A stretch of 44,042 nt of DNA. It comes from Bacteroidales bacterium. GTDB lineage: Bacteria; Bacteroidota; Bacteroidia; Bacteroidales; Muribaculaceae. Made by a program: the position numbers and the translations under genes. The notes under the pieces were generated by a model that was given only the letters and a program-made list of their open reading frames with translations, had not been told where the DNA came from and searched no databases. The DNA is taken from NCBI GenBank assembly GCA_014800385.1, contig JAAVGE010000058.1:1-44042 (forward strand), given 5' to 3'. Below are positions 30,137-33,182 of the stretch, piece after piece (position 1 is the stretch's first letter; every line of letters begins with the position of its first letter).

Positions 30137-30140
30137 AAGT

Positions 30141-30323
30141 GTGTGTCAAAATAGGCGAAGCCTCGCCGTATACAAGATTATGCGGCTGCTCCATGGAGCA
30201 GCCCTACAGGGTTAATGTGTTGATTGTCAAGAGGGTAGGGATGCTCCCTGGAGCATCCGCCGAATATACATCACTGTCCATGAACGTACAACACATAAAA
30301 ATACATGCGTATTTTGACACAGC
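30141..30323. mobile_element. MITE-like element, copy 2 (inverted relative to copy 1)
   Basis: Reverse complement aligns along almost the whole length to 11721-11911; ends GTGTGTCAAAATA/TATTTTGACACAGC; begins 4 bp after the rlmH stop codon. Confidence 0.75.
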
Positions 30324-30424
30324 ACCATAAAAAAATTAAGCCCGGTCATGAACCATTTCTAACCCGCGGATGTTATAATATCAGAAAGCAAGAAATGTGA
30401 TAATGATTGGTTTATAACGAATTT

Positions 30425-30450
30425 AAGGCTGTCGTGATGACAGCCTTTTT
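30425..30450 (+). terminator. Terminator-like hairpin in the left arm of the foldback
   Basis: AAGGCTGTC-GTGAT-GACAGCCTT then TTT. Confidence 0.65.
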
Positions 30451-30534
30451 CGTTATATTAAGAGGTTGAAAATAAGTAGAAACGAAATATGCTTGATAAC
30501 ATAAACTAATTCTCAACCTCTACTCTTTCAGGCA

Positions 30535-30563
30535 CGAAAAAAGGTTGTCATCACGACAACCTT
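30535..30563 (-). terminator. Terminator-like hairpin in the right arm of the foldback, opposite orientation
   Basis: Minus strand AAGGTTGTC-GTGAT-GACAACCTTTTTTCG; stem changes relative to the left arm are compensatory. Confidence 0.65.
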
Positions 30564-30686
30564 AAATTCGTTATAAACCAATCATTATCACATTTCTTGC
30601 TTGTTCGATATTATAACAACGTATGAAGTCTGATTGTTCACAACATTCTGCAGAAAATTTAAAAAGTTTCAAAATTCTCAAAATAT

Positions 30687-30764: not shown

Positions 30765-33182
30765 ATGAAAAAATCGATCATATTTATCATACTTTCTTTC
30801 TTTACCAGCCTGGGTGTTATGGCTCGCGATGTCAATATCCACGGTAAGATTATCGACCCTGAGAACAAGCCTATGGAGTTTGTTACGGTACGCATCGGCG
30901 GAACTGCCATCGGCGGCATGTCGGGGCTTGACGGAGGTTACTCCCTTACCACCCACTACTCCGATACTATCAAGGTGATTTTCACTTGCATCGGCTATAA
31001 GGAGGTTGAGCGTAAGATTATTGATCCTCAGCAGGATGTAACGCTTAACATCACGCTGCATCCTACCAGCAAGGAGTTAACCGAGGTGGAGGTTACCGAT
31101 TTCAAGAAACAGACTTCACAGATGCAGACCATCGACGGTAAGGCAGGACGACTTATGCCTAACGCATCGGGTGGTGGCGTGGAAGCGATGATCACCACTT
31201 TGGCAGGTGTTAACTCCTCGGATGAGATGTCGTCGCAATACTCCGTCCGTGGTGGTACGTTTGATGAAAACTCGGTGTATATCAACGGTATAGAGGTTTA
31301 TCGTCCGCAGTTGGTAAGTTCCGGTCAGCAGGAGGGTCTGAGTATCATCAACCCCGACATGGTTGACAAAATCGGTTTCTCGACCGGAGGTTTCTCGGCT
31401 GAGTATGCCGACAAGATGTCGTCGGTTCTTGATATAACCTACCGCGAGCCCGAGGCTCTTGAGGGGTCACTCTCATTGTCACTGATGGGGGGATCACTCG
31501 CCTTCGGTCAACATTCCGGCAAATTCTCACAACTCCACGGCGTGCGCTACAAGCGTAACTCCTCGCTGCTGAGTTCAATGGACACCAAGGGTGAATATGA
31601 TCCCAACTTCTTTGATTATCAGACAAATTTAGTGTTCCGTCCCTCAAAACAGTGGCGTATTTCGGTGTTAGGCAATATTGCCATCAACAACTATAAATTT
31701 GTTCCGGCATCACGCACAACCAACTTCGGAACATCGACCGATGCCAAACAGTTCAAGGTGTATTTCGATGGTGAAGAGAAGGACAAATTCGAGACATGGC
31801 TCGGCGCGGTGTCGATAGATTATCTCCGTTCACGAAGCACATATTTCACCCTTCAGGCATCAGGCTATCTGACCAACGAACTTGTGGCATACGACATTTT
31901 GGGAGAATACTGGCTTGACCAGGCCGGGACCACCGGCAACGGCTCATCCGGTAGTTCCGTAGGGGGTGAATTAGGGGTAGGACGCTATCATGAGCATGCA
32001 CGCAACCGATTGAAAATGAGTGTGATGTCAATGGCTCTCAAAGGACACACCGGCATAGCCTCACACAATCTTGCCTACGGTTTCACCATGCAGCACGAAT
32101 CGATCAACGAGCGTGCCAGAGAATATGAGTTGCGCGACTCCGCCGGATATACTCTTCCCACCAATCCTGATCAGATAAAAATGATCTACAACCTCAGTTC
32201 AGTTCAGGAACTGTCAACCAACCGACTGGCACTTTATGTTGAGGACACCTATCGCCTGAACAGTTCAGTGGGCTACTTCAATATCAATGCCGGCCTACGA
32301 CTGAGTTACTGGGATTTTAACAAACAGATGCTGCTGTCACCCCGTGCCAATGTGGCGTTTGTGCCCGAACGCAACAGCGCCTGGACCTTCCGTTTCGCCA
32401 CCGGAGTATACTATCAGTCACCCTTCTACAAGGAGTATCGCCAGCCCGTGGCAGATTCCGAAGGGAACACAGAGATTGTGCTCAACAAAGATATCAAGGC
32501 ACAACAGAGCCTCCAGTTCATTCTCGGATCGGATTACACCTTCCGTGCCTTCGACCGACCGTTCAAACTCTCCGGCGAACTCTACTATAAGAAACTTAAC
32601 AACCTGGTACCCTACGAGATAGACAACCTCAAGTTTGTATATACCGGACTGAACGAATCAAGTGGCTACACTGCCGGACTCGACCTTAAACTGTTCGGTC
32701 AGTTTGTGCCCGGAAACGATTCATGGGTCAGTTTCTCGCTGATGAAAACCGATGAGTTGGTCAACGGAGTTCATGTGCCCCGTCCCACCGACCGCCGCTA
32801 TTCATTTGCCCTGTACTTCACCGATTATTTTCCCAAGATTCCACGCCTGAAATTCTCTCTGCGCGGCATCCTTTCCGACGGTCTCCCCACCACGGCCCCA
32901 CACACCACACGCGACAAAGGTTACTTCCGTGCTCCGGCTTACAAACGAGTGGACATCGGACTGAGTTACGCATTGCTGCGTGAACTGCGCGAGAGCGAAT
33001 CACCTTCAGGGCTGCATAAATTCTTGAAATCAGCATGGTTAGGTGTTGACGTGTTCAACCTGCTTGACATCAGCAACGTGTCGGGCTACTACTGGGTAAC
33101 CGACGTGAACAACATTCAGTATGCCGTGCCCAACTACCTGACACGCCGACAGATAAACGTTCGTCTGACAGTAGATTTTTAA
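30765..33182 (+). CDS. TonB-dependent receptor with N-terminal carboxypeptidase-like regulatory domain
   Basis: Signal peptide; 'HGKIIDPENKPMEFVTVRIGGTAIGGMSGLDGGYSL'; plug 'SSQYSVRGGTFDENSVYINGIEVYRPQL'; C-terminal beta-strand ending RQINVRLTVDF. Confidence 0.93.
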   Translation: MKKSIIFIILSFFTSLGVMARDVNIHGKIIDPENKPMEFVTVRIGGTAIGGMSGLDGGYSLTTHYSDTIKVIFTCIGYKEVERKIIDPQQDVTLNITLHPTSKELTEVEVTDFKKQTSQMQTIDGKAGRLMPNASGGGVEAMITTLAGVNSSDEMSSQYSVRGGTFDENSVYINGIEVYRPQLVSSGQQEGLSIINPDMVDKIGFSTGGFSAEYADKMSSVLDITYREPEALEGSLSLSLMGGSLAFGQHSGKFSQLHGVRYKRNSSLLSSMDTKGEYDPNFFDYQTNLVFRPSKQWRISVLGNIAINNYKFVPASRTTNFGTSTDAKQFKVYFDGEEKDKFETWLGAVSIDYLRSRSTYFTLQASGYLTNELVAYDILGEYWLDQAGTTGNGSSGSSVGGELGVGRYHEHARNRLKMSVMSMALKGHTGIASHNLAYGFTMQHESINERAREYELRDSAGYTLPTNPDQIKMIYNLSSVQELSTNRLALYVEDTYRLNSSVGYFNINAGLRLSYWDFNKQMLLSPRANVAFVPERNSAWTFRFATGVYYQSPFYKEYRQPVADSEGNTEIVLNKDIKAQQSLQFILGSDYTFRAFDRPFKLSGELYYKKLNNLVPYEIDNLKFVYTGLNESSGYTAGLDLKLFGQFVPGNDSWVSFSLMKTDELVNGVHVPRPTDRRYSFALYFTDYFPKIPRLKFSLRGILSDGLPTTAPHTTRDKGYFRAPAYKRVDIGLSYALLRELRESESPSGLHKFLKSAWLGVDVFNLLDISNVSGYYWVTDVNNIQYAVPNYLTRRQINVRLTVDF

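Follow-up and report, generated by a model that had tools for sequence, protein, structure and literature searches.

Introduction

The sigma-E envelope-stress small RNAs (sRNAs) MicA and RybB are stress-driven and bind the start regions of mRNAs for envelope proteins. LhrC of Listeria is a multicopy sRNA (PMC4132741). In the Bacteroidaceae, FopS (family of paralogous sRNAs) comprises 12–15 short copies per genome, each with a single-stranded 5ʹ seed followed by an intrinsic terminator (PMC11697453). FopS sRNAs pair near start codons and block translation of SusC-like mRNAs; they have a sigma-ABfr promoter (TTTG / TAnnTTTG) and bind the RRM protein RbpB (PMC11697453). A different promoter, PM2, has been described in Bacteroides thetaiotaomicron. 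This non-canonical, near-palindromic promoter has been linked to oxidative-stress genes, and the sRNA GibS is transcribed from it (PMC7366714). Its elements lie at -10 and -30 (PMC7366714, PMC11697453), with TGTT at -10 (PMC12596196).

In the literature that we searched, we found no regulatory RNA described for the Muribaculaceae. Members of this family dominate the mouse gut. Here, we analyze an inverted repeat at positions 30371–30618 of a 44,042-nucleotide Muribaculaceae contig (hereafter the window). A sequence-only reading of this locus had offered three hypotheses: a foldback MITE, an invertible segment, or two facing small-RNA genes ending in terminators. Our analysis supports the last of these and argues against an invertible segment and, for the arms, against a foldback MITE. 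It is quite probable that the arms are two convergent genes for one small RNA, and that this RNA belongs to a multicopy, trans-acting family with a seed for translation-start regions.

Results

Structure of the inverted repeat

The element has a fold energy of -130.8 kcal/mol, compared with a mean of -45.9 kcal/mol for shuffled sequences (z -18.2). Since this fold is 18 standard deviations below the shuffles, the inverted repeat is not due to chance. The sequence-only reading described nearly perfect arms of ~84 bp; the repeat is real, but it consists of blocks of 12 bp and 65 bp with a short mismatched stretch between them (Table 1). Other elements of that description hold as they were given. 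Each arm has its own hairpin, with a U-tract on its own strand pointing towards the spacer (left, AAGGCTGTC/GACAGCCTT, 30425–30447; right, AAGGTTGTC/GACAACCTT, 30541–30563), the two stems differ by a paired substitution (a C-G to T-A change), and the spacer contains an inverted repeat of its own (AGAGGTTGA/TCAACCTCT, at 30461–30469 and 30513–30521). The promoter-like element in both arms has the spacing TGAAC-N17-TGTTATAATA.

Table 1. Positions of the arms, the parts of the two facing units and the adjacent repeats in the window.
Feature	Position	Strand	Basis or remark
Outer arms	30371-30382 and 30607-30618		100% complementary, 12 bp
Inner arms	30386-30450 and 30538-30602		97% complementary over 65 nt
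Left promoter-like element, TGAAC (-35 type)-spacer-TGTTATAATA (-10 type)	30349..30380	+	matches TGAACN{16,17}YGTTWTAWTA
Left predicted small-RNA gene, transcript ~69 nt	30384..30452	+	family alignment and terminator; 5ʹ end inferred from promoter, 3ʹ end from terminator
Left conserved core AAGAAATGTGATAATGATTGGTTTA, proposed seed	30390..30414	+	identical in all seven own-genome copies
Left intrinsic terminator AAGGCTGTC-GTGAT-GACAGCCTT-TTT	30425..30450	+	stem covariation, 28 units
Spacer, a short copy of a dispersed repeat with terminal repeats about TAAGTAGAWGTTGA	30460..30530	.	own-genome matches
Right predicted small-RNA gene, ~72 nt, facing left gene	30534..30605	-	same architecture as left gene
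Right intrinsic terminator AAGGTTGTC-GTGAT-GACAACCTT-TTT	30538..30563	-	paired substitution relative to left copy
Right conserved core	30574..30598	-	exact match
Right promoter-like element, TGAAC-spacer-TGTTATAATA	30609..30640	-	motif search
Adjacent MITE-like element, 12-bp terminal repeats TGTGTCAAAATA/TATTTTGACACA	30140..30321	.	own-genome copies

Copies in the genome of the window

We searched the genome to which the window belongs (1.94 Mb in 72 contigs, 76% complete) with the whole element. This search split the element into two unrelated families, one represented by the arms and the other by the spacer. Further copies, which the sequence-only reading had proposed to look for, were found for the arms at five other places: three on contig C25, one on C15 and one on C5. 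Together with the two in the window, this makes seven sRNA genes. The copies outside the locus are single or loosely grouped, are half as long and form no foldback. Those on C15 and C5 and one of those on C25 stand alone. The remaining two on C25 (47132/47727) form a facing pair at a distance of ~500 bp; the protein-coding stretch that they enclose is a small gene whose product we read as a TM2-domain-like protein. At other loci, tandem sRNA copies 180–290 bp apart are frequent (L124, L030, L031, L040, L142 and others).

For the spacer, 15 other places in the genome match positions 30470–30524 wholly or partly, at 77–96%, one of them being a 24-bp piece. Members of this repeat range from about 55 to 185 bp, the fuller copies being ~185 bp long. 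Several lie at contig ends, where the repeat probably breaks the assembly. The MITE-like element next to the sRNA genes belongs to a third repeat family; it lies directly after rlmH and shares about 90–93% identity with its copies on C25 and C11.

The proposed sRNA unit

Alignment of copies from the genus and the family gave the same order of parts throughout: TGAAC, 16–17 bp, YGTTWTA; a leader; the core AAGAAATGTGATAATGATTGGTTTA; a hairpin; and a T run. A unit thus appears to have its own promoter motif and its own intrinsic terminator, as would be expected of a gene for a trans-acting sRNA. The leader is short, at times with a small variable hairpin, and often reads TACATAGCAAAATTACTTTTTCCATTGC. 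Both window copies have a shortened leader; other genera have a longer one, which in some cases forms a hairpin. The core is 25 nt long; it reads ATG TGA TAA TGA, so that translation would stop at once, and contains no protein-coding frame.

Conservation is concentrated in the core. Among 153 units, defined by no more than two mismatches in a 21-nt stretch of the core, about 122 different terminator stems (by an approximate stem finder) accompany a nearly invariant core. Calculated by column, the information content is 2 bits across most of the core and ~1 bit over the 12 bases that precede it; downstream of the core it drops to near 0 within a few bases, and it is ~0 through much of the stem. 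The invariance of the core is partly built in because the core served to find the units. Mostly exact cores were nonetheless recovered by a looser search with a tolerance of six mismatches in 25. Beyond the terminator, the family is recognized by its primary sequence. The core is predicted to be only partly unpaired (mean about 0.3–0.8), which speaks against its reading as a seed.

The stems vary in sequence while retaining their pairing. In 28 alignable units, 98% of stem cells are paired, and five of the nine pairs include double changes, with 38 double-change cells compared to 10.2 in shuffles. The covariation score of the stem is 0.447 compared to 0.187 in shuffles, a value reached by 0 of 500, and sliding the partners against each other destroys the signal. 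Selection on the small hairpins, suggested earlier from the two copies in the window, is thus borne out by the family.

A candidate ECF-type promoter

In nearly all units that have the pair of promoter-like motifs, NGAAC starts 22–23 nt before GTTWTA starts (91/144, compared to 0.34 in shuffles). GAAC followed after 16–17 bp by CGTT or TGTT is characteristic of promoters for ECF sigma factors, and the motif described here has the corresponding GAAC-type -35, 16–17 bp spacer and CGTT/TGTT-type -10. Hence, the units are probably transcribed from an alternative (ECF-type) sigma promoter. Across eight genomes of the genus, the strict form of the motif has 27 occurrences, the majority of them at sRNA genes. 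The other sites, in three species, precede genes that we take from their sequences to encode rubrerythrin, a YtxH-like protein, a cupin and a conserved membrane protein. Loci at which the ECF-like motif stands before genes for rubrerythrin, the YtxH-like protein and the conserved membrane protein are L241, L250, L245, L255 and L263. The motif could be used to map a stress regulon.

Distribution in the Muribaculaceae

With no more than two mismatches allowed, the 21-nt core was found in 96 of 147 genomes of the family, which record titles place as Muribaculaceae or under compatible broader labels, and in 17 of 26 genera, whereas a backwards-pattern control gave 0 matches. Carrier genomes, which include Duncaniella muris DSM 103720 and Paramuribaculum intestinale DSM 100749, mostly have 1–7 copies, and up to 8 by blastn. 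Among 295 genomes drawn across the order, no match outside the family was closer than three mismatches; the three-mismatch matches are at chance level and are without the promoter/terminator architecture. The core was also present on two contigs (L108, L128) of one Clostridiales-labelled record, probably a mislabelled Muribaculaceae genome.

The commonest neighbor of the units is recA. In many genera, a unit lies divergent from recA, 160–440 bp away (31 of the 153 units; e.g. L199), and this is perhaps the ancestral place of the gene. Given the recA-divergent copies, one may ask whether the sRNA is connected with DNA damage. No recA-linked copy was found beside the own-genome copies tested, and neighbors other than recA vary between copies. 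No family except tRNAs passed its Rfam threshold, either for the window or for two successive sets of relative loci (20 and eight), and a text search of the accessible literature did not find the letters of the core in print.

Complementarity of the core to translation-start regions

Complementarity to translation-start regions, a property looked for in trans-acting sRNAs, was found in carrier genomes. With gene starts taken from a simple frame finder, we counted genes with an exact 9-mer complement to the core between -50 and +20, and compared these counts with those for 300 dinucleotide-shuffled cores. One carrier (G014) has such a site at 40 of 976 genes (shuffled mean 8.8, maximum 22) and another (G001) at 41 of 661 (shuffled mean 9.2, maximum 30); in each case, none of the 300 shuffled cores reached the observed count. 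Pooled fragments of many carriers gave 20 sites compared to 5.9 for shuffled cores (maximum 18). In the single non-carrier included in this gene-by-gene test (G029), the count was 2 of 317, compared to 4.0 expected.

Mid-gene windows had 0 (G014) and 3 (G001) matches, with no excess over shuffles, and windows from -120 to -50 were at background for exact 9-mers in these two carriers. Windows after stop codons show enrichment too, for which overlap with the start region of the next gene or with an sRNA is the probable reason. Predicted duplexes below -16 kcal/mol are found in 91 start windows compared to 12 mid-gene windows (1,637 genes, two carriers); for 15 dinucleotide-shuffled cores, start and mid-gene numbers are alike, with a ratio of about 0.7–2.1. 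Upstream matches are concentrated at 5–40 nt from the start codon; ACCAATCATT is the stretch most commonly matched.

The complementary sites are also more frequent in genomes that carry the RNA. Across all 147 genomes, we counted ACCAATCA followed within 30 nt by ATGAAR, and divided this by the count for a dinucleotide-matched permutation, ATCAACCA. The ratio is 1.64 (759/463) for the 96 carriers and 0.78 (191/244) for the 51 non-carriers, and exceeds 1 in all 17 carrier genera. The difference between carriers and non-carriers has p = 3e-7 over genomes, which share common ancestry and are not independent, and p = 0.01 over the 26 genera. About 4% of the listed carrier matches are antisense to the sRNAs themselves, too few to matter. 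Antisense pairing at the start region is the simplest account of the excess of complementary sites.

Individual target assignments are weak because orthologous genes of two genera share sites only slightly more often than independence would predict (five pairs compared to 2.8 expected). The targets are thus a statistical excess of predicted sites, rather than individual proven genes. Examples are a SusC-like receptor gene (G001:C3:10256), with TAAACCAATCATT at -27, and a gene in G014 with ACCAATCATTATC at -25. Long matches in 5ʹ UTRs belong to genes that presumably encode a SusC-like TonB receptor, TolB-like and FtsL-like proteins, and several secreted proteins, these names having been read from sequence. 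A signal-peptide-like start is present in 28 of 72 predicted targets compared to 310 of 1565 (nominal p = 2.7e-4), although among the matches of shuffled cores the share of such genes also reaches 30% (compared to 39%). Hence, the suggested tilt of the predicted targets towards envelope proteins is treated as modest.

Discussion

The mirror symmetry of the locus is that of two paralogous genes standing face to face. That two copies came to face each other here is accidental; what makes the locus interesting is the family to which they belong and the regulon that it seems to have. The family is new, and is of a known type, with multiple copies that each combine a seed with a terminator.

What would be the function of such an RNA? 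We propose that transcription starts at the ECF-type sigma promoter and yields an RNA of ~70 nt that consists of a 5ʹ leader, the 25-nt core and an intrinsic terminator. The core would serve as an antisense seed for many mRNAs, with which it would pair in the 5ʹ UTR or around the start codon. By analogy with FopS, such pairing would most likely block initiation of translation (PMC11697453), and several near-identical copies may provide additive dosage. We lean slightly towards a broader proposal, that the RNA is an undescribed, lineage-restricted global regulator of the Muribaculaceae, with 1–8 ECF-controlled copies and a seed that pairs with ~3–5% of gene starts, the sites being commoner in carrier genera. 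If this is true, about two thirds of Muribaculaceae genomes have an sRNA family whose predicted seed and targets can be tested in cultured strains. Genera without the RNA would provide a natural contrast, and the greater frequency of sites where the RNA occurs would offer a rare comparative view of the gain or loss of an sRNA network.

Other explanations account for parts of these data. An alternative reading of the core, which we consider unlikely, is that it is a binding site for a protein in RNA or DNA, for example a chaperone or sponge site, with start-region complementarity as a by-product. The 25-nt stretch is invariant enough for this, and the FopS sRNAs of Bacteroides bind RbpB (PMC11697453). 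Nonetheless, a protein site leaves unexplained why the start-region excess is seen in carriers and is absent in non-carriers, and a search for an RbpB-type partner gave no RRM_1 match in the window's own genome, which is 76% complete. The arms might instead be attenuators or leaders of downstream genes, rather than trans-acting RNAs, as they are intergenic and end in terminators. This is highly improbable given that neighbors differ from copy to copy in all four orientations, that recA, being divergent, is not downstream, and that there is no conserved downstream gene on the same strand.

The remaining two alternatives concern the inverted repeat itself. In a foldback MITE, the arms would be terminal inverted repeats and the spacer the interior, which fits the near-perfect complementarity of the arms, the dispersed nature of the spacer and the presence of MITE-like elements next door. 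We rejected this explanation for the arms, and regard it as very unlikely overall: five of the seven own-genome copies are outside a foldback and only half its length, none of them carries both arms, and all have the same core. Moreover, terminators have diverged while the core and the promoter spacing are kept, whereas mobile copies would decay evenly. An invertible segment controlling the TonB-dependent receptor gene at 30765 is scarcely credible, even though inverted repeats do bound a short stretch upstream of this outer-membrane receptor gene. The repeats are accounted for by the two sRNA genes and the spacer belongs to a dispersed repeat; Pfam searches of eight window proteins, including both direct neighbors, found no recombinase, and the paired arrangement was not found beside the same genes in the other loci examined.

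We favor two facing sRNA genes as the explanation of the locus, and this invites comparison with described sRNAs. BTnc231 (RF04180) was considered as a homolog on the basis of a below-threshold Rfam match (19–36 bits compared to a cut-off of 80.4), and was rejected. The match is strongest in the terminator hairpin and aligns few bases of the core; it looks like a generic resemblance between terminators. With MicA, RybB and LhrC, the Muribaculaceae sRNA shares the proposed pairing at start regions, and with LhrC also the multicopy state. In contrast to these sRNAs, the envelope bias of its predicted targets is modest, and we know of no sequence relation between it and any of the three. As with GibS, the promoter is probably not a housekeeping one. 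By description, the TGTT at -10 of PM2 resembles TGTTATAA here, and a relation between PM2 and the TGAAC-N16/17-YGTTWTA element is likely by this analogy; Rfam scans of the window and the relative loci gave no match to GibS itself.

The closest comparison is with FopS. The Muribaculaceae family is not FopS, because it has no Rfam match to FopS, an apparently different type of promoter and a different bacterial family as host. The Rfam scans with cmscan covered the window (E up to 1) and 20 relative loci (E up to 5), the presence of FopS in Rfam being taken from the deposition statement of the paper that described it (PMC11697453). Where FopS has its sigma-ABfr promoter, most units described here have an ECF-type TGAAC/YGTTWTA pair at the corresponding place. 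In its general plan, the Muribaculaceae sRNA is nonetheless like FopS: it is multicopy, it combines a seed with a terminator, and it is predicted to pair with the start regions of mRNAs.
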